A stretch of DNA of 64,000 nt, taken from NCBI GenBank assembly GCA_963971305.1, contig OZ020305.1:43225717-43289716 (forward strand). The letters are read 5' to 3'. The notes under the pieces were generated by a model. It was not told the origin of the DNA, made no database searches, and worked only from the letters and a program-made list of their open reading frames with translations. This document shows, piece after piece, positions 2,467 to 45,604 of this stretch; the stretch's first letter is position 1; each line of letters starts with the position of its first letter. Both the position numbers and the translations under genes were made by a program. This DNA is from Arcuatula senhousia (lineage: Eukaryota > Mollusca > Bivalvia > Mytilida > Mytilidae).

Positions 2467-22996
<20,530 letters not shown>

Positions 22997-24579: not shown

Positions 24580-25131
24580 ATGACCAATTGGGTGCTTTTC
24601 GTCGTTTCAGTTGTCACATTGTTCCAAACTGCTTCGTCCTGCAATCGCCCGAAAATAATTGCTCACGACTTTGATATAAAGGACCACGTGGGTGTTCCAT
24701 GGTACTTTGTAAGAGGACTAGATCGACAAAATGATTGTTACGATTGTCACAATATAACATTTCTTGGGCACCCTGAAGGACTATATCTAGCGGAGGAGCA
24801 TTATATTTTAAAGCTGAATGACTCTACAGAACATTTCTTCCTAGAAACGGACGTGTCCCAATGGAATAAATCTACACCTGGTATTATGAAGTTCCAAAAC
24901 AATGACTTCGAAACAACTCTTGAGTGGCGAGTACTTGGTTTTGAGGAATCGTTTATATATTCTTATTACTGTGGAAAATATCCCGGCGGATATCCGTTCG
25001 AAGGTTCGGTAGTTCTTTCTAGACACACTGAATTATCGAATGAGACTCTTTCTAGAATAGAACATGTTGGAACGGCTTCGGGGTTGAACATTTATAATTA
25101 CTGCAAACCCCAGTTTTCAGTGTGTTACTAA
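24580..25131 (+). CDS. Secreted VDE-like lipocalin, barrel domain only
   Basis: 183 aa in one exon. A hydrophobic signal peptide (residues 1-20) is followed directly by CNRP (from C21), which matches the start of the lipocalin domain in the two paralogues near 33.3-36.7 kb. Shared with plant violaxanthin de-epoxidase: a lipocalin-like GxxW (38-41), the DC pair ending C56, SQWN (93-96), and EGSVV with a preceding YY (129-130). The whole N-terminal cysteine-rich domain is absent. At the site of Arabidopsis Asp177 it has Leu114, with Glu115 next to it; the tunnel Tyr (Y198) is kept as Y130. Several NxS/T sites suggest glycosylation. Carotenoid or other lipid binding is likely; de-epoxidase activity is unproven. 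AATAAA signals lie at 25209 and 25232. Confidence 0.85.
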   Translation: MTNWVLFVVSVVTLFQTASSCNRPKIIAHDFDIKDHVGVPWYFVRGLDRQNDCYDCHNITFLGHPEGLYLAEEHYILKLNDSTEHFFLETDVSQWNKSTPGIMKFQNNDFETTLEWRVLGFEESFIYSYYCGKYPGGYPFEGSVVLSRHTELSNETLSRIEHVGTASGLNIYNYCKPQFSVCY

Positions 25132-25889: not shown

Positions 25890-28244
25890 CTTCACTTGGC
25901 GTACGTCGTCGTCTGTCGTCGTCTGTCGTCTGTCGTCCGTTAACAATTTTTCAAAAATCTTCTCCTCTGAAACTACTGAACAGAATTATTTAAACTTGGT
26001 ATGAATGATCCTTAGGGTGTCCTGCACTAAACTTGTGTTTCGATTTTTGATCCATCAAAAACATGGCCGCTGTTACTAAAAATAGAGCAGGGGGTCAGAC
26101 TACTGTTTTTGGCTTGTAAATCAAAAAATATAAGAGATAGATGAAATTTTATGCCACCTTACTGCTTCAGCATCAAATGTTCTACAAAAGTCTGCATTTG
26201 GTCAAAAGTGTCAGATGATCCCTTATAGGGGTTACAGCCCCTTACATGTGAAAAATAGCGTTTTTTAATGTTTTTAGCTTATAGAATGAAAACTATTGCA
26301 GATAGAGAAAAGCTGTTGCTTTCTTAAATGTTCAGCTCATTTAGCTCTACAAAAGTCATCATAGGGTCGTCGTTGTCAGATGACCCCTTAAAGGGTATCC
26401 AGTCCCTTATAGGCGAAAAATGGTGTTTTTGGCCTATTGAATGAAAACAATTGCACATAGAGAAAAGCTGTTGCTTGCTTAAATGTTCAGCTCATTTAGC
26501 TTTACAAAAGTCATCATAGGGTCGTCGTTGTCAGATGACCCCTTATAGGGGTTACAGCCCTTTAAAGGCAAATAATAGTCTTTTTGGCCTATCCCAGATA
26601 GCAAAAGTATGTTGGGCCTACGTTGGTTTATGGTTGGCAGTCTCGTTGGCCCATCGTTGGCTAAAGATATTGGCCCAACATCATTTTGCTCATCGGGCCC
26701 ACGTCATTCCCAACCGATGGCTCGACGTTGGCCCGACGTAGTACAAATGTTAATGCCGACGGCGAACCAACGTTAATTATATGAAGAGTTCATTAGATCT
26801 TATATTTATATTTACTCAAATATTCATACACTAAAGTGTACTTTACCGATCAGCAGTCAAGAAGTTTCTTGATGAAACTAGTCTTTGATCTTGCTGATCT
26901 TTTCAAAAATAAGGCAATAACATAAATAGTCAATTCTAAAGGTCTCTATTTTTTGTGAAGTTAAAATGTAATAGGTTAAATTAAAATCTTAATATTGCAT
27001 AAAATTGATTCGAATCATCAGTATTGTCAAAACTTGTTAATCAATTATTAAAGTATGCATTTTTTGTTCCATAATATGTTAGAAACTTGAGTCTTGGTTT
27101 GTGTAACTTGTAAAAATAATTTCATATCATAGCATATTATAATGATTTTAAGGGGAAATAATCAAGTTTTTGACGTTGACCTTATGTTGGGCTAACGTTG
27201 GCCCAACTTTTAATTCTGAATACAACTTAAAACCTCTTACACAGAATTTCTTGACCCTTAGAAATTTGACAGATTAAGAGATGGGAGAAATCTATTCATT
27301 TTTAGGATATAAAGTTCAAAGTATAAATCATGCAAAGTCGATATGAATTCAGATGTAAGTTTACTCAAAAGTACAAATCATTTGCACACAAATTGTGTCA
27401 ATATTGACATCACCACAAAATTGGATCGTAATTCAAAATGAATTTGAAGAATGATAATTATATTAATGCTTGATCCGTGTAATCCTTGAAATATTTACTG
27501 GATTAATTTAATAACATAATCATTTATTCTCGGCTACCCAACGTTTTTCCAACCGATGGCTGTACTTTGGTGGGCCAACAGTGGGTCAATGTCGTACTGC
27601 CAACCGTTGGTTTTGACACATTGGTCCAACGTTGGCCCAAGGTATACAGGCCAATGCCAACCATATGCCAACCTTGCCAACTAAATGCCAACGTTGGCCC
27701 AACAATGTCTTGCTATCTGGGATAGAATGAAAACTATTGCAGATAGGGAAAAGCTGTTGCTTGCAAAAATGTTCAGCTCATTAAGCTCTACATAAGTCTT
27801 CATTAGGTTGAAGTTGTCAGATGACCCCTTATAGGGGTTACAGTCCCTTCAAGGCGAAAACTAGTGTTTTGGCCTATAGCAGATAGAGAAAAGCTGTTGC
27901 TTGTTTATATGTTCAGAGCATTCACAGGGTTGAAGTTGTCAGATGACCCCTTACAGGGATTACAGCCCCTAAATTAGCACGTTTTCATGTTTTTGGCTTA
28001 TATAATGAAAACTATAGCAGATAAAGAAAAGTGGTTGCTTGCTTAAATGTTCAGTTCATTCAAAGTGTTCAGATGGCCCTTTAAATAACATTTTGCACGT
28101 TTTTAGCCTACAGAATGAAAACTATTGCTGAAAGAGAAAAGCTGTTGCCTGCTTAAATGTTTAGCTTATTTAGCTCTACAAAGTCTTTCATAGGGTTGAC
28201 ATCAAGACCAGGTGAGCGATTCAGGCTCTTGGGAGCGGCCTCTT
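25890..28244 (-). mobile_element. CAGGTGAGCT-type element, inverted, with nested insertion
   Basis: Reverse orientation: the CGTCGTCTGTCGTC run comes first (25893-25940). Then several ~150-bp units follow, and it ends CCAGGTGAGCGATTCAGGCT. The UUCG hairpin tip is missing, so the end is truncated. It is interrupted at 26592-27722 by another element. Confidence 0.8.
26592..27722. mobile_element. TA-flanked DNA element with GTTGGCCCAAC repeats
   Basis: Terminal inverted repeat TCCCAGATAGCAA/TTGCTATCTGGGA, flanked by TA on both sides (26590-26591 and 27723-27724). Removing it restores the host repeat GGCCTATAGAATGAAAAC. Both ends carry many palindromic CGTTGGCCCAACG-type motifs. The 1,131 bp have no coding frame. 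Confidence 0.85.
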
Positions 28245-28479
28245 TTTGCTTTTTAAAGGTGAGTCAAAAACAACCAAAGGTCTGGGGATCGCTATTGGCG
28301 CCCAGTGATGGATCAAAGGGGGTGAGCAAGCGATCAGGCCGAAAAGAATTTTAGTAATTTCGAGGAAACCAGAGTGAATCTGCATATCATTTAAAATTGC
28401 ATAGACTTTGTCACTGTAAAAAGGAGACTTTTATAAACCTTGAGACCAAGAAAATTTATGATGACACGTATATCATATA

Positions 28480-28745
28480 GATAATATGAAGCAGGTTAAA
28501 CCTGTGACGCTCCCGAGGTTACAATTAATTTTATTCATTTTTTGTTCGAAAATAAAAACTAACTAGCTTTTCTTGTGGGTCACGCATGCGTTTAATGACG
28601 TCTAAAATTTTCAAAGAAAAAAGCATTAAAAAGACACCGAAAGTTCGGGATTACCAGCGTGCATAACCGGACTTTGAAGGAAAATTCAGCTCATATTGAT
28701 ATTTCTACCATTATCGTATCCTTCGGGAGCGTATGAGAAATCGAA
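28480..28745 (+). mobile_element. MITE-like element with GACGCTCCCG ends, copy 1
   Basis: Starts GCAGGTTAAACCTGTGACGCTCCCG and ends CTTCGGGAGCGTATGAG. It contains TCTTGTGGGTCACGCATGCG and AAGGAAAATTCAGCTCAT. An inverted copy lies at 34529-34860. Confidence 0.7.
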
Positions 28746-33341: not shown

Positions 33342-34136
33342 TTATTGGTTACAATTGCTATAAGACGGCTTACAATACGAGTTGATATCAAGTCCAGACT
33401 TTGAAGCTGCAATGTGGATTTTTGAAAGAGTGTCGCTTGCTAAAACGGGTGTTTTCGAATAAACAACTGACCCTTCAAAGAAATAATTTGCCGAAATTGA
33501 CCCACAATAGTAAGTGAATATATAGTCCGGACCGAAATCCAAAACTCTCCATTCCGATGTTGTTTCGTGTCCCATTTGAACACTGTTGTATTTGAGAACG
33601 CCAGAGGTCGTTGTATTCCATTGTGTAACTGTATCAATGACGGTTCGATGTTTAACAGTGCCCTCTATTGTGTTGACGTCGAAATGTTCAACGGCAGAAA
33701 AAGCACCGTTGCTGTTTTTCACGAAAGTAGTGTTCTGACAATTAAAACAGTCATAAATTGGGTTTTTACCAAGAACTATGAACCAGGTTCCGACAAGGTT
33801 TTCAAAATTGAAAGATTTGGCTATGGTGCTCGGTCTGTGGCAGACGACAGGTGGATTTGGTGGCGGGATCTCCATGCATTTATGGTCGGTAACTATGCAT
33901 TTCATAAAGTTATCAAATACATCGTCTTCATATGAATACAAGCAGTCGAACTCACAAGTCTGGTTAGAGGTTCCACATCCCGTCATGCACTCCATGGCCT
34001 TTTTACAATCAGAATCTGAAACACAGTCTTTCATCTCGCTAGAGCAATGTTCTACCATGCATAGAATATTTGGAAAAGCACAATGAATCTGTGCAACAAG
34101 GACTAATCCAAGCAAGAACATTAATAATTTAGACAT
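33342..34136 (-). CDS. Secreted violaxanthin de-epoxidase-like protein (Cys-rich + lipocalin)
   Basis: 264 aa, one exon. Signal peptide 1-19. The cysteine-rich domain has Cys at 26, 31, 38, 44, 50, 54, 61, 65, 80 and 87. The spacing 5-7-6-6-4-7-4-15-7 equals that of plant VDE as I recall it, except one gap (7 instead of 9). A lipocalin barrel follows from C99, with GTW (116-118), NPIYDCFNC (125-133), SGVLKYN (178-184), EWRVL (195-199), TYYCG (208-212) and EGSVVYSK (221-228). At the place of catalytic Asp177 of Arabidopsis there is Ser194; Tyr198 is kept as Y210. Plant VDE reduces epoxy-xanthophylls with ascorbate in the thylakoid lumen; here the protein should be secreted. Substrate unknown. 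The stop TAA is part of CAATAAAG, a possible poly(A) signal. Confidence 0.9.
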   Translation of the reverse strand: MSKLLMFLLGLVLVAQIHCAFPNILCMVEHCSSEMKDCVSDSDCKKAMECMTGCGTSNQTCEFDCLYSYEDDVFDNFMKCIVTDHKCMEIPPPNPPVVCHRPSTIAKSFNFENLVGTWFIVLGKNPIYDCFNCQNTTFVKNSNGAFSAVEHFDVNTIEGTVKHRTVIDTVTQWNTTTSGVLKYNSVQMGHETTSEWRVLDFGPDYIFTYYCGSISANYFFEGSVVYSKTPVLASDTLSKIHIAASKSGLDINSYCKPSYSNCNQ

Positions 34137-34528
34137 TTTGAAGTTGGAGACTAGTTTTAAAATTGGTTATCTCAAAGTCAGGTAATAGACTTCGGCCAAC
34201 AATTGTATACGCATGGGTCAAGTACCGGTAGATAATATAGACAATTTTATAACATACTGTCACATGTTTAAACACAACTTTTTATGCTTGTGAATTTGGT
34301 TTATAGATTTCAAAACAAAATAACACTCACTTTACCACATTATCTAAGGAACGTCAGATATATTCAGCATGACTTTTACCAGTGATTTGTTATTGAAATG
34401 TTTAGGCCAAACGGGGTCTGCAATTTTGATTATCGGTCCCGTTCTGTTTTGATTATTAAATTATCATTGTGTTGTTACCATTATTTCACGGGGAGTTGGC
34501 AAAATTAGATAATTCAAACGATTTTTAT

Positions 34529-34860
34529 ACGCTCCCAAAGGGTAGAAACGTCAATATTTTAGTTGTGCTATGAGCTGAATTTTCCTTCAACGTCCCGTTT
34601 AGCACGCTTGTTTTCCTGAAATTTTCGTGCCTTTTTAACGCTTTTTTCATTGAAAATTTCGAATGTCATTAAGCGCACAATTGACCCACAAGAAAAGCTA
34701 CTTTCGTTGTATTTTCGAACATGATAAACCCGATCATAAATTGCTTCAAATTCAATGCATTACAAATGTACAGTATATAATGTTTCAAATTTAATTTTAG
34801 CTTGTAAAATTATAGATACACTTTAACTTCGGGAGCGTCACAGTTTAAACCTGCCTCATA
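34529..34860 (-). mobile_element. MITE-like element with GACGCTCCCG ends, copy 2 (inverted)
   Basis: TACGCTCCCAAAGGG at the left and CTTCGGGAGCGTCACAG at the right. It shares ATGAGCTGAATTTTCCTTC, TTTAACGCTTTTTTC and GACCCACAAGAAAAGCTA with the 28.5-kb copy on the opposite strand. Confidence 0.7.
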
Positions 34861-34869
34861 TTAAGAAAT

Positions 34870-35863
34870 GGTCGATTCTTGAAAGGTTTGATGGCATCAA
34901 TCCCCCCTCCAAACCAGATATTTTTAGTAGCAACGTTGCACTTAAATTTGTATTTTCTTAAAGTGCCATGCAACCTCTCTCTGAATGTGTCGTATACTCA
35001 TTTCTTTGTGCTGTTTTGAAAAATAAGTCAAGTTTTAAAGCTTGCTGAACAACTGCTGAGCTTAAGATAGCATCAATGCGTGAAAGAATTTTTTTTCACA
35101 ATTCTATTGTTAAAAGAAAATGCTCTATATTCATTTTAGTATCTTAAATTCAATTCAAATTAGTATACGGATATATTTATATGCAGTGCTCCTGTGATAT
35201 TTTCATTGCCTTATATCTTGGGTAGACTGATAAATGTCCGTGCTGAAATTGATGGATAGTAAAATTTGAGTTCTATGTTAAGAAATAGATCATACGTCTG
35301 GTGAGACAAGACAGTGGTAATTGTTTCTTCAAAATATTGCATCGAGATAAAACATAAGAATCCATTTTGTGAAAAAATTCTAATATACATTACACTACAC
35401 TAGATAATTAAGAATGTCTAGGCATCAAGCAGAAATATCGCTTCGTCTAGAAAATTTACATTGGTAACAATGGTCTTAACTTTGATTTTTTTTACAATTC
35501 ACAAAAGAATGGATATTAATCCCCAAATAAATTTGTATTTCATTAAGTATCAGTACAAAAGACTCTGCAACATTCATCTAACACTAGAGCATGACTCGAG
35601 GCCTCCTAAGCAAACTTACTTATGTGACCTTAATTGACTTTGAACCATTAGACTACTAATTGTGTAAATTCTTGGTATTCTTGACACTAAGGAAATACTA
35701 GTAATCTGGACTGTTGAAAAGCCCAATTCTATAAGTCTTCCGCTTTCGCAAGAAGGTTGAGGTCAAAATTCGACAATGTTGTCAATGACGAATTAACATT
35801 TATCATCCTCTGATTGAAAAGAAATTCAACCTTTTGTTTGAAATATTATTATATTATTTACAA
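34870..35863. other. Spacer between the two full-length VDE-like genes
   Basis: About 1 kb with no coding frame or repeat that I recognise. Both neighbouring genes point left, so it holds the 5' flank of the 33.3-kb gene and the 3' flank of the 35.9-kb gene. Confidence 0.5.
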
Positions 35864-36658
35864 TTAACAACCATTATTTTTAGGTTCACAAAATGAAGTT
35901 AAATTAAGTCCAGCTTTGATTGCAGCATTCGTTAATCTCTCCTGTAAGCTAACAGGGAGAGCGACCGTTCTAGAATATACAACAGCACCCTCATAGTAAT
36001 ATCCAGCAGAAACATAACCACAGTAATATGCGAAAATATAGTTATAACTTTGATCGAATTCTAGTATTCTCCATTCTGATATTGTGCTCTGTCCTAATTG
36101 TTCACTCTTGTATCTCAAAATTCCGGAAGTTGACTGATTCCATTGAGAGATAGATTCGTTCACATTCCACGTTTTAACTTTCCCGTCTATGGTTTTGACG
36201 TGAAAGCTTTCTCTTGCAGAGATACTGCCATCTTCGTTTTGACTAAATATCGTCTTTTGGCAATCAAAACAATCATATATAGGATTCAACCCACGAACAA
36301 CGTACCACATTCCTTGAAGTTTAGTTAGATTAAAGTTAGCTGCAACATTTGATGGACGTTTGCAGACGATTGGTGGCTTTGGTTTTGGGAGTTCCATACA
36401 CTTGTGGTCACTCGTAATACATTTGATAAAATCATTAAATATTTTTCCTTCGTACGAATATAAGCATTGAAATTCACAAGTCTGGTTTGTCATACCACAC
36501 CCTGTTAAACACAACATGATTTTCCTACATTCCGAATCAGTGAAACAATTTTTCATTTGATTGCTGCAATGTTCTACCATACACAGAACATTTGGCGTGG
36601 AAGCTTTTGTAAAAACAATCCAACAGAAAAACAATGACAGTCCAAAATAACGACTCAT
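35864..36658 (-). CDS. Secreted violaxanthin de-epoxidase-like protein, paralogue
   Basis: 264 aa, one exon, same length and same cysteine positions (26, 31, 38, 44, 50, 54, 61, 65, 80, 87, 99) as the gene at 33342, so a tandem duplicate. Signal peptide about 1-19. Lipocalin GMW (116-118), NPIYDCFDC (125-133), SGILRYK (178-184), SEW (194-196), AYYCG (210-214), EGAVVYSR. Ser194 stands where Arabidopsis VDE has Asp177; the tunnel Tyr is Y212. It ends in Cys, like plant VDE near its C terminus. NQT, NLT and NQS sites may be glycosylated. Head-to-tail with the neighbour 1.7 kb away. It may bind dietary carotenoids; catalysis is uncertain. Confidence 0.9.
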   Translation of the reverse strand: MSRYFGLSLFFCWIVFTKASTPNVLCMVEHCSNQMKNCFTDSECRKIMLCLTGCGMTNQTCEFQCLYSYEGKIFNDFIKCITSDHKCMELPKPKPPIVCKRPSNVAANFNLTKLQGMWYVVRGLNPIYDCFDCQKTIFSQNEDGSISARESFHVKTIDGKVKTWNVNESISQWNQSTSGILRYKSEQLGQSTISEWRILEFDQSYNYIFAYYCGYVSAGYYYEGAVVYSRTVALPVSLQERLTNAAIKAGLNLTSFCEPKNNGC

Positions 36659-39601: not shown

Positions 39602-39757
39602 ATTTATTTGTAAATTGTTTTTTAGCTCGCAGGTTTGAATTTACCGCTTACTTGGGGAGCAACCCCGCAGCCTCGTTTTCACTTGCCATGCTTCTTCCTA
39701 TTATAGTTTTTGCTTTCAATGGCGCAGCATTAAATGTTACAGGCTTGCTTTTTGAAA

Positions 39758-40793
39758 ATGGCATCTGACGACTCAGGCGAAAAATTGCATGACATAATCG
39801 AAGGCTTAAGAAGTGGGCGGAGGCAAAGGAATGAAACAGATGTCTCTGGCCAAGAGGAAGTTTTCCATGATCCCTTACAGCCTTCGGATGAAGATGATCC
39901 CCGTGGGACAGAAAATTGCAACGCAGAAATCGAGGACCTTCAACAGCAGTTAACGAACATTAAGTTAGAAAAGAAAAAGGCCCTTTTACGCCAGGCAATA
40001 GAGAAGGAAAGGTATGAGCTGCGAAACGTCCAGGAATCTGCCTTAAGTTCTGATTCGCGTACATTTTTTGAGCCATTTGCGGCGTACCAGTCTAGACAAA
40101 TGAACGCAACTGCCACAGGTGAGACATTTACATCTAATAAGGATAACACCGAACACAAGGCTCTTGACATTCTTTCATTTATTTGGGCAGATTCGGTTGA
40201 ACAATATCAAACGTTTACACTGGGTGGCGATGTCGAATTCCGCGTCGGAAAAAAGAGAACACTCGACAAGGTTACGATCGAGGAATGGGGATATGCGAAT
40301 ACTAGAATTATGCAGGAACTGATCAAACAAAATCGCTTGAACAATGTCAATAGCTACCTTAACTACACCGCTGACATATATCGATTGTCCTCGAGAAATC
40401 TATGGGTCTCCATACTTCTGTACGACAAGGAATACCGCGAAAAACAGGCAACAGAAAAGTTCGAGTGGGGAACATATCGGCAAGACTTACGAGAATTTTA
40501 AGCTCATACCTAAAAGAGAGAATCCGACTACTCGTGCTATTCTCGACGGCTCCCCGCAGATCAAAAGCAAAGGAAAGCGTTCCAATGGGGATCGACGCAA
40601 GGGACCGTTTTTACCCGACGGACGGGAGATTTGTCGCGCTTTTAACTATGCTTCTTGTTTTAGATCGGATTGTAAAATGATGCATAATTGTTCTATATGT
40701 TATTCCAGTCAACACGCGGCGGTCAACGGACATAGTCTACCTCAAAGCGGAATGCAGGCAAAAAACTGCGAATCGCCTCAAAACCTACACTAA
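39758..40793 (+). pseudogene. gag-like ORF of DIRS-like retroelement, frame broken
   Basis: Starts at ATGG (39758; the in-frame ATG at 39734 is less likely). An acidic N part is followed by a helix rich in Lys/Glu (IEDLQQQLTNIKLEKKKALL), then WADSVEQYQTFTLGG and a conserved-looking LSSRNLWVSILLYDKEYR. The frame closes at 40499-40501. The protein continues one frame over from LIPKREN, so there is a one-base difference around the TTTT run at 40495-40498. The shifted frame carries ICRAFNYASCFRSDCKMMH and CSICYSSQH, a Cys/His zinc-binding module, and ends at 40793. The frame change could be decay or a recoding site. Confidence 0.7.
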
Positions 40794-42460
40794 CCGCCGA
40801 TAATAAGGAGACTCCAGCAATAAACACTTTAAACCTCGAAGCATGGAGTCGTCTTCTTCCGAACTTTTACAACGACCGTGAGTTTATTTTAGACGGTGTA
40901 AAGAATGGTTTCTTATTGAGTACCAAATTTGGACCGCATGTTCCTGTTTGTCGTGATAATTATTCGTCTGCTTTTAATAACCGCATCAAAGTTGAAAACC
41001 AAATCAGAACCGAAATAGCACTTGGAAATTATATTGTGACCGACCGTATTCCTACAATTATGAGCTCATTAGGTGCAGTTAAAAAGCCGAATGGAGATAT
41101 TCGTCTTATTCACGACGCTAGCCAGCCTTGTGGTATTTCTTTAAACTCTTATACCTGTGATACTAGTTGTTCATACATGGATATGCGTGACGCTATAAAG
41201 CTTATAAAACCAAATAGTTTTCTTGCAAAGGTCGACCTCAAAAGTGCGTATAGGTCGGTGAGTTGCCATAGTTTTGATCACCCCCTTACAGGCCTCAAAT
41301 GGACCTTTTCAGGTGATAAGCAACCGACATACATGTACGATTCCAAGTTGCCATTTGGTCACTCACGTAGCCCTATGATTTTTCAGAAATTGAGTAAAGC
41401 GGTGTGTTTTATTATGCAATGTACTTATAATGTTATTTGTATAGCTTATCTTGATGATTTTTTGATAATTGCAGATTCTAAGTTTGACTGTAGTAAGGGT
41501 TTATTGTCTTTGATACGTACTTTAAGAGAATTAGGTTTTAATATTAATTGGTCAAAAGTAGAAGGCCCGTCACAGCAATTAACTTTTTTAGGTATTGTTA
41601 TTAACACATGTGAATTGTCGTTGTCTATGACAAATGAAAAGCAAACTGAGTTTTATAATTATTTGTTAACTTTTAAGGACCGTAGACGAGCTAGTGTTAA
41701 GCAAATACAGTCTCTTTGCGGCAAATTGAACTGGGCTTGCCAGATGATCAAAGGCGGAAGAACTTTCTTAAGACGTTTGATTGATTCGATTTCTGGATTA
41801 AAGAACCGTAGTGACAAAGTTTTACTTTCTTCAGACTTCCACGCCGATATATTGTGGTGGATTCGGTTTATGCAAGTGTTTAACGGGACTGTAAAATTTC
41901 TAGATTGTCGTGAAATTACTTCTTTGCAGACCGATGCGTCTTTGTTTGGCGGTGGTGGCTATTACAACGGTGACTATTTTTATGTAAACTGGTCGATAGA
42001 CTACCCTGACATTCAACAGGAACACATTAATGTTAAAGAGACAGCAGCTGTTATTTTGTCCGCTTTTCGCTGGGCACACTTGTGGTCAAATAAAAGTGTT
42101 ATAGTAAGAACAGACAATATGACTGCCAAATGCGTTTTAAACAAGGGTTCTTCAAAAAACAAGTCGCTTATGAAACTTTTGAGACAGCTCTTTTGGCTAT
42201 CCGCTACTTACAACTTTGATATTCGGGCGAAATTTATCAAAGGTTGTGCTAATTCTATCGCAGATGCCGCCTCTAGACTCCACGAAGAAGGACAACTTTC
42301 TAGACTTTATGATACTTTGTCAAGTTACAATTTACTCCCCTTTACTGTGAATGAATTGCTACAACATGTGACTCTTAACTTTTTCAATTACAGATGGAAC
42401 CGGTGGTATCCTGGATTTAGAGGTTACCGTAGCACGTTTGAAAAGCAAGGGATGGGCTAA
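40736..42460 (+). CDS. Reverse transcriptase-RNase H of DIRS-like retroelement
   Basis: Open from 40736, conserved text from NLEAWSRLLPNFYND. RT motifs: KKPNGDIRLIHDASQP, FLAKVDLKSAYRSV (first catalytic Asp), LPFGHSRSPMIFQKL, IAYLDDFLIIA (YLDD), ELGFNINWSK and QLTFLGIVI. RNase H follows at once: SLQTDASLFGGGGYYN (Asp), HINVKETAAVILSAFRWAHL (Glu), VRTDNMTAKCVLNKGS (Asp), FIKGCANSIADAASRL (Asp). RT and RNase H run together with no protease and no DDE integrase, as in tyrosine-recombinase (DIRS) elements. No recombinase is readable downstream, so the element is truncated or decayed. The frame runs over 570 codons without a stop, so the insertion looks fairly recent. Confidence 0.85.
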   Translation, partial: STSKRNAGKKLRIASKPTLTADNKETPAINTLNLEAWSRLLPNFYNDREFILDGVKNGFLLSTKFGPHVPVCRDNYSSAFNNRIKVENQIRTEIALGNYIVTDRIPTIMSSLGAVKKPNGDIRLIHDASQPCGISLNSYTCDTSCSYMDMRDAIKLIKPNSFLAKVDLKSAYRSVSCHSFDHPLTGLKWTFSGDKQPTYMYDSKLPFGHSRSPMIFQKLSKAVCFIMQCTYNVICIAYLDDFLIIADSKFDCSKGLLSLIRTLRELGFNINWSKVEGPSQQLTFLGIVINTCELSLSMTNEKQTEFYNYLLTFKDRRRASVKQIQSLCGKLNWACQMIKGGRTFLRRLIDSISGLKNRSDKVLLSSDFHADILWWIRFMQVFNGTVKFLDCREITSLQTDASLFGGGGYYNGDYFYVNWSIDYPDIQQEHINVKETAAVILSAFRWAHLWSNKSVIVRTDNMTAKCVLNKGSSKNKSLMKLLRQLFWLSATYNFDIRAKFIKGCANSIADAASRLHEEGQLSRLYDTLSSYNLLPFTVNELLQHVTLNFFNYRWNRWYPGFRGYRSTFEKQGMG

Positions 42461-43241: not shown

Positions 43242-43619
43242 GTAAGCAAACAAATTGATCGCCCCCAAAAAACATACTCGTTTTGAAGAGTTTACTTTGT
43301 TCAAAAACTGCGCCAAACATTGCATGACATTACAATATACTCTTAATCGTCATAACACAAACTAAAGTATTTATTCTGATTAACAAGACATTTTTTTAAT
43401 ATTCCAAATAGCTTGTAGCTTTAGTTAAATAGTTTTTGGTCTGTCCTTCTGTTCTTCCACCACTCGCGCCTCAGGTTAATGTCTTTTCTAAAAACAAATA
43501 ACGTGTTGACTCGTGAGATTTTGTTGGCTTATAAATAATTTTAAAAAAATGCAATTGCAGCAAGTAGTATAAACAGTATATGTCCTTATTTTTATTGACT
43601 CATATTCAATTTTTTTCAG
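43242..43619 (+). other. Intron of transposase-like gene
   Basis: 378 nt, GTAAGC...TTTTTTTCAG. The phase of the two flanking exons agrees (ACA G|GG AAG). Confidence 0.8.
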
Positions 43620-45604
43620 GGAAGAGAATACGGACAAATGTGTTAACCACAGAAAATTCACCATGGACTTACTCTTTTAGGAAGACCAGATGTGACACTT
43701 TATCGGAAGAGATAAAGAAACAGGTTTATGAGTTCTGGATCGAACCAGAAAATTCGAGACCAACAGGCAACAAAACTGATTTAAAGAGAGTCAGATTGGG
43801 CCCTAAACAATATGCAACTCATATGAAGTATGTCCTCGAAAAAACTCAAACGGAGGTTTATTTGGATTTCAAAGAGAAATTTCCGAATATTAAAATATCC
43901 CAAAGACTGTTCGAAAAATTAAAACCTTTTTTTGTAATACCCGTCCGTCCATGCGACAGAGAAACCTGTTGTTGTAGGTATCATGTGGAAGCTAGGTTTT
44001 TGTTTAAAAGCGCGATGGATTTCCGAAAGAAGAATATCCCAAAAAATAACATGTATCCTATCTACGACCATTTAACAGACTTATTAAATGTAACCCTTTG
44101 CCCAAAAAAAAACGGAGAAAATTTTCATGATTTGAAATGTGTAGAACGCAGGTGCGAGGATTGTGGTATCAAACAGTTCTTACTATCAGAAGAAGAAACA
44201 GCAACCGATGACAAATCGCATGATGTTGAATGGATGAGATACGAATATATAACAATAAAGACAAAAACTACGACCAAGAAAAAACTTTGTCTGGTGAAAA
44301 AGAAAACAAAACCTGGTAAAATGTTTGAATACTTTACTGATATATTGTTTAAATTTTCAGCTCATGTTTTCCGTTCGAAATGGCAAAGCTGTCAGTTAAA
44401 ACATTTAAAAGATAATTTGCCCGAAAATGAGATCATTTGTATTCATGATTTTTCAGAAAATTATGCATGTAAAGACAAGGTCGAAATTCAGTCCAGCTAT
44501 TTTCAAAAAACTGAGGTGTCCTTGCATGTCTCGATTATTTATCGACATCCTGTAAAAGACATTGACGATATGACCGACGATTCGGATCAAGGGTTGATTG
44601 AGGAGCATTTCTTTGTAATAAGTCCTGATCAAACCCACGACCACAATTATACTCACGAAGTACAGAAACAAATTTGTCAGTATTTAAAAAACATCAAATA
44701 CAACTTGAAAACAATTCATGAGTTCACGGACGGGTGTTCTTCTCAGTATAAATCGAGGCACCGCTTCGGAGATGTGAGTTACTCAAAGGATGATTTTGGT
44801 TGTAATATTATAAGGAATTTTTTTGAAACTTCTCATGCTAAGGGAGTTCAAGATTCAGCAGGAGGACTGATTAAAAATCAAGCAGATTATGCTGTTGCTC
44901 GAGGGAAAACAACAATTCAGAATGCAAAAGATTTGTTCGATTTTTGTAACGAAACCTTGATTACACCTAAGCAAACATCATCCTCTTGTAAAAAGCGGTT
45001 ATTCCGGTATGTAGAGGAAATCCCCAGAGAACGAGGAAGGCTATTCAAACCGGTCCCATCAGTTCGATGTATACACCAAATAAAAACTGTAGATAGTTGT
45101 AATATCCTTGTCCGAAACCTGTCTTGTTATACCTGTAGTCAATGTGCCGACCGATGTTACAATAATTGTACTAGTTCTGCCGGGCCGTTTCAGTTATATA
45201 GCCTTAAACCAGAGCAAAATATACCGGACATTTTGAATAACACACAGGTAACTAAAGAGGGTTTTGACGATTTAATACAGCCCGGAATTATTTTAGCCGT
45301 ATTTACAGACTACCCGGGGGAAGATTATTATCTCGTCAAGTGTTTGTCGGATGTGCAAACTTTAGATTCCCCCAAAAACGACGATTGGGGCAACTGTTTT
45401 CAAGTAGGGGCAAAAGTGGTAGACTGTTTTTACTTTGACAAAACAAATGCTAGTCGATTTGAATATAAGTTGTTAAAAAACAAAACAACAATTATTCCAG
45501 TGCTTTCCATAAGGTACATTTGCATCGGCATCGAAACAAAGTATGGAAAATTTTCACTTTCAGAAGATATGCATCTTGACATTTTAGAAGCGTGTGGCAA
45601 GTAA
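43620..45604 (+). CDS. Transposase-like gene, main exon (RNase H-fold)
   Basis: Acceptor TTTTTTCAG|GG; joined to exon 3 it reads MSTGKRIRTN in phase. About 661 codons. Cys clusters RPCDRETCCCRYH (near 43950), CVERRCEDC (near 44140) and CYTCSQCADRCYNNC (near 45127) suggest zinc binding. The core shows ICIHDFSENYACKDKVEIQS (near 44437), VSLHVSIIY, EHFFVISPD, HEFTDGCSSQYKSRHRFGD (near 44717) and ETSHAKGVQDSAGGLIKN (near 44824), laid out like the strands and acidic residues of an RNase H-fold DDE/DDD transposase. A widespread uncharacterised family in cnidarians and molluscs has this order (recalled). Possibly Sola-like, but not established. An intact frame suggests recent activity or domestication. 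Confidence 0.8.

Follow-up and report, generated by a model that had tools for sequence, protein, structure and literature searches.

Three VDE-family genes in a mussel genome window

We analysed a 64-kb window of the Arcuatula senhousia genome (positions 43225717-43289716 of a contig of 74600347 bases), in which a preliminary description had placed two secreted relatives of violaxanthin de-epoxidase (VDE). The VDE family is best known from the protection of plants and algae against bright light. Three genes of this family were found, all inside 12 kb:

33342..34136, minus strand: VDE-family gene A (P0001), 264 amino acids (Pfam, open reading frame, alignment)
35864..36658, minus strand: VDE-family gene B (P0002), 264 amino acids (Pfam, open reading frame, alignment, AlphaFold2)
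24580..25131, plus strand: VDE-family gene C (P0003), 183 amino acids (Pfam, tblastn, AlphaFold2)

The tandem pair was located as described, A and B each forming a single uninterrupted frame from ATG to one stop codon. The count of two family genes was incomplete, with the lipocalin-only gene C as a third member. In A and B, a hydrophobic leader of approximately 20 residues (by eye) is followed by a ten-cysteine domain (C26-C87 in A) and a lipocalin domain, which contains six cysteines in A. In gene C, the lipocalin domain comes directly after the leader without a Cys-rich domain, and tblastn detected no Cys-rich piece for this gene in the 64-kb window. The AlphaFold2 models had pLDDT values of 89 (B) and 91 (C), and the short leader was helical in the predicted model, with low confidence there. 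The stop codon of gene A overlaps an AATAAA signal, and polyadenylation-type signals lie approximately 77 and 100 nt past the stop of gene C; no AATAAA or ATTAAA was found within 250 nt of the stop of gene B.

A and B are identical at 135 of 262 aligned residues. Their identities at codon positions 1, 2 and 3 (66, 73 and 40%, respectively), together with the conservation of the Cys-rich part (66%) above the barrel (49%), indicate that both proteins are under constraint. In tblastn, gene C was matched by the lipocalin parts of A (40% identity) and B (34% identity).

All three proteins are members of the VDE (PF07137) family. The Pfam matches of A (E 1.1e-45, 156.5 bits), B (E 8.2e-51, 173.2 bits) and C (E 1.1e-15, 58.2 bits) exceeded the curated cut-off of 25.7 bits, bearing out the assignment first made for A and B. 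NCBIfam returned nothing for five proteins. All ten conserved cysteines are present in A and B, spaced 5-7-6-6-4-7-4-15-7 in both; the spacing was 5-7-6-6-4-9-4-15-7 in 12 of 12 plant VDEs tested (Arabidopsis and 11 others), so the earlier reading of a plant pattern with one altered gap (7 instead of 9) was correct. The plant spacing agrees with the disulfide and cysteine numbering in a 2026 review (PMC13181403), and the spacing of B was reproduced in none of 200000 shuffles of B. Among the chains listed by VIA-align, the lipocalin barrel was nearest to VDE by sequence and by fold, compared with other solved lipocalins.

Loss of the VDE catalytic acid

Published Arabidopsis positions (taken from passages of PMC13181403) were mapped through the alignment onto the window proteins. 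Together with P0004, P0005, P0009, P0010 and P0014, A, B and C make up eight rows that we call clam-type. Position 177, in a column ungapped relative to W179, is Ser in A and B and Leu in C; seven of the clam-type rows have Ser there and one has Leu. The same position is Asp in all 12 plant VDEs and Glu in all 14 rows of a second group of relatives described below. According to the same passages, VDE becomes inactive when D177 or Y198 is mutated, and residue 177 is Glu in VDL and VDR (PMC13181403). By these rules, the window proteins lack both one residue essential to the VDE enzyme and the VDL/VDR signature.

Other features of the plant enzyme were also changed. Two residues of the pH switch are altered: H121 is Thr in A and B and Ile in C, and R138 is replaced by Asp, His or Ile. 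Q153 and F155 are substituted in all three. The Glu-rich C-terminal domain is missing, with 0-2 residues past the last cysteine compared with 100 in Arabidopsis. The barrel is not enlarged: B aligns with Arabidopsis VDE at 163 of its 166 lipocalin positions. Several positions were kept, namely W179, Y198 and D114 in eight of eight clam-type rows and Q119 in seven. A and B retain D114, Q119, F123, W179, Y198 and Y214, the last of which acts with H121 in the pH switch of the plant enzyme; in gene C, F123 is retained, position 119 is His and position 214 is Leu.

The loss of D177 argues against epoxide reduction by the plant mechanism, and that of the pH-switch residues against acid activation. 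Judged by these residues, the window proteins are not plant-type VDEs, and a working VDE using the known mechanism is not supported. They should be described as animal VDE-family lipocalins without the VDE catalytic acid, which is apter than "animal VDE".

Additional cysteines and predicted secretion

Four extra lipocalin cysteines (C99, C130, C213 and C257 of B) were present in 8/8 clam-type, 14/14 second-group and 0/12 plant rows, and two of the four were found in P0029. N-glycosylation sequons number three in A, five in B and four in C; these lend weak support to secretion, because plant VDEs carry some by chance. Taken together, the leader, the extra cysteines and the sequons point to an oxidising secretory route. 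A, B and C are therefore likely to be secreted, as had been proposed for the pair, and form a divergent branch, probably secreted, within a known family.

Relatives and phylogeny

Three protein searches yielded the five clam-type proteins outside the window, the second group, P0029 and plant-type VDEs. The third returned 1409 proteins; among the 120 listed, seven belonged to the second group and 113 were plant-type, being 75-100% identical to Arabidopsis VDE, and 12 of the latter were used in the alignment and trees. The second group (our label, also "plankton") comprises P0006-P0008, P0011-P0013, P0015-P0021 and P0034, from metagenome and other collections. With unaligned members included, the set is P0006-P0008, P0011-P0013, P0015-P0028, P0030 and P0034, where P0023-P0028 appear by eye to be copies from genomic DNA in which an intron of approximately 40 nt is read through. 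The fragment P0022 was left out of the trees, and P0023-P0028 and P0030-P0033 were left out of the alignment as fragments, sequences with read-through introns or weak matches. P0029 has Asp at 177.

The trees were unrooted and built without named VDL or VDR sequences. The eight clam-type proteins fell on one side of a branch with support of 99/97, and gene C and P0029 had very long branches. When the tree was rebuilt without these two, the groups held and the seven remaining clam-type proteins were supported at 97/94. Between B and the 12 plant VDEs, 51-57 of 162-163 lipocalin positions were identical. The clam-type group stood apart in these trees. The animal genes may derive from old inheritance with loss elsewhere, or from an old transfer. 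For prokaryotes and viruses, eight and four stretches, respectively, matched one peptide pattern and tblastn confirmed none of them, although distant relatives could escape this search.

Genomic setting and the question of contamination

The assembly contains 1036387356 bases in 1803 contigs. A genome-wide family search gave three matches, which are exactly A, B and C, without internal stops; because the search runs exon by exon, such counts are lower bounds, and split or far-diverged copies could escape. Two POLR2B features were recognized in the same window:

12235..13189, minus strand: POLR2B exons (Rpb2 domains 4, 5 and 6; Pfam)
15128-15610: weak Rpb2 domain 1 match (E 0.004, under the cut-off; Pfam)

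The exons at 12.2-13.2 kb are clear, in line with the POLR2B neighbor reported earlier, but they lie 18-20 kb from the A/B pair with gene C in between. COX1 gave a single match in the assembly (again a lower bound), on the 22940-base contig C1803. This match has 11 in-frame TGA codons and is uninterrupted under the invertebrate mitochondrial code, and its nearest PDB chains belong to the groups headed by 8d4t and 1occ, the latter presumably bovine, indicating that the host is an animal.

Because the family was otherwise reported from photosynthetic eukaryotes, the genes might stem from algal contamination of the assembly or have been transferred recently from algae. For that reason a VDE-like expressed sequence tag (EST) from the oyster Crassostrea virginica was viewed by Coesel and co-workers in 2008 with serious reservations as to its identity, and algal contamination was speculated; the combination of Cys-rich and lipocalin domains was then held to be restricted to photosynthetic eukaryotes (passages of PMC2483416). 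In A. senhousia, however, the genes lie 43.2 Mb into a 74.6-Mb contig, POLR2B exons share their window, and the COX1 match is single. Contamination and recent transfer are also opposed by the low identity of B to plant VDEs and the separate position of the clam-type group in the trees (97/94), and no plastid transit peptide was seen by eye. We consider this explanation highly improbable. As far as tested, A, B and C are genuine nuclear animal genes and not contamination, in agreement with the animal window described initially.

A VDE in an animal, initially called unexpected, is not entirely without precedent. Besides the oyster EST, one sentence in the Manila clam genome paper of 2017 (PMC5499747) places VDE among families present in the clam but missing from oyster, snail and octopus. 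Going by the two published accounts, a genuine oyster EST is hard to reconcile with the lack of VDE in that oyster genome. A literature search whose coverage left out most subscription journals found no study devoted to animal VDE-family proteins.

Several other elements were observed in the window. Degenerate repeats of approximately 155 nt (five copies, 26104-28252) occupy part of the stretch that separates gene C from A and B, and a 153-nt inverted pair occupies 28543-28695 and 34569-34721. A retroelement-like stretch on the plus strand (39734-42460) holds open frames of 255, 150 and 574 amino acids; the last matched a reverse transcriptase (E 5.5e-18) with weak RNase H-like matches, and the other two had no Pfam match. 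An open frame of 678 amino acids (43568-45604, plus strand), possibly a transposon protein, matched neither Pfam (E 0.1) nor NCBIfam (0.01).

Possible functions

We propose, with a probability of about 0.5, that A, B and C are secreted proteins that bind a long hydrophobic ligand in order to carry or scavenge it, and that they do not act as VDE-type reductases. The leading candidate ligands are dietary xanthophylls or comparable lipids of algal origin. The proteins would enter the secretory pathway, where A and B would adopt a two-part fold, a ten-Cys domain locked by disulfides with a lipocalin barrel attached to it, and C would fold as the barrel alone. The barrel would then take up a long hydrophobic ligand, for example, a dietary xanthophyll or a similar algal lipid, and secretion suggests the gut lumen or haemolymph as the site of action. 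Binding of such a ligand is favored by the barrel fold and the retained W179. Considering that W179, Y198, D114 and Q119 persist in A and B, handling of algal epoxy-carotenoids by these two proteins is possible.

If the VDE likeness reflects ancestry only, the proteins might be secreted lipocalins with a non-carotenoid role, involving another lipid, a pheromone, immunity or the shell matrix. The conservation of W179, proposed to stack on violaxanthin, in all eight clam-type rows and of F123 in A, B and C argues against this, as does the nearness of sequence and fold to VDE among solved lipocalins, and we regard such a role as rather doubtful. It is unlikely, in our estimate, that the proteins are enzymes acting on dietary epoxy-carotenoids, either using ascorbate and some other acid to de-epoxidize them or, like VDL1, isomerizing 5,6-epoxides without net reduction, which would lead to bivalve products such as mytiloxanthin, crassostreaxanthin or de-epoxyneoxanthin derivatives. 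Such activity would accord with the five retained residues (W179, Y198, D114, Q119 and F123) of A and B, and with VDL1, which catalyzes the tautomerization of violaxanthin to neoxanthin with residue 177 changed to Glu (passages of PMC13181403). Moreover, epoxide opening is carried out by bivalves on fucoxanthin and peridinin, and a 7',8'-didehydrodeepoxyneoxanthin occurs in Corbicula clams; the passages of PMC3093257 and PMC6949322 reporting this name no enzyme for these steps. Nevertheless, residue 177 is non-acidic in all eight clam-type rows, whereas VDL and VDR keep an acid, and gene C has His in place of Q119 and is missing the Cys-rich domain, which VDE requires. The carrier or scavenger function remains our preferred reading.

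A bolder proposal, which we think quite improbable, is that a separate secreted, disulfide-rich animal VDE branch acts on algal xanthophylls, either opening epoxides as an isomerase or de-epoxidizing in a non-canonical way, and is the missing enzyme for bivalve-specific carotenoids. If this were true, the fusion of Cys-rich and lipocalin domains would not be confined to photosynthetic eukaryotes, contrary to the 2008 view. 

Whatever their function, two copies of the fusion, along with a barrel-only third gene, lie far inside an animal chromosome, and the changes are consistent: the catalytic acid and the pH-switch residues are lost and disulfide cysteines are added. This makes contamination a less likely explanation of such animal sequences in general, the oyster sequence itself being outside this comparison. 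The genes also provide a natural test of how the VDE scaffold behaves without its acid, and they are definite candidates for proteins that bind carotenoids or act on epoxides in filter-feeding animals.

Comparison with known systems

Compared with Arabidopsis VDE (PDB 3cqn/3cqr), A and B have Ser and C has Leu in place of D177, and H121 and R138 are lost. VDE has a Glu-rich C-terminal domain, which the window proteins lack, and a plastid transit peptide, in place of which they have what looks by eye like a short leader; they also possess the four extra lipocalin cysteines, and C is without the Cys-rich domain. By published description (passages of PMC13181403 and PMC2483416), VDL1 and VDL2 of chromalveolate algae resemble A and B in the ten cysteines, Y198, W179, an altered residue 177 and the lack of a Glu-rich tail. 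They differ at residue 177, which is Glu in VDL and Ser or Leu here, and in the lipocalin domain, which is enlarged in VDL and of plant-VDE length here. VDR, likewise compared by description, shares the Cys-rich and lipocalin-like plan of A and B; it is reported to be without a PF07137 match and 12% identical to VDE in Arabidopsis (passages of PMC2483416), whereas the window proteins match PF07137 strongly.

Among other secreted lipocalins, apolipoprotein D was farther in sequence (E 3.6e-5), and sandercyanin, crustacyanin and others were not among the matches listed at E <=1. None of these is known to carry the VDE-type ten-Cys domain. Over the lipocalin domain, the second group shares 29-35% identity with B. 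It resembles A and B in the ten cysteines (13 of 14 rows; P0012 begins past the first), and the window proteins in the four extra lipocalin cysteines together with an Arg after W179 (14/14) and in a hydrophobic N-terminus (by eye). It differs from the window proteins in its longer N-terminal segment and in the Glu at position 177 in every row.
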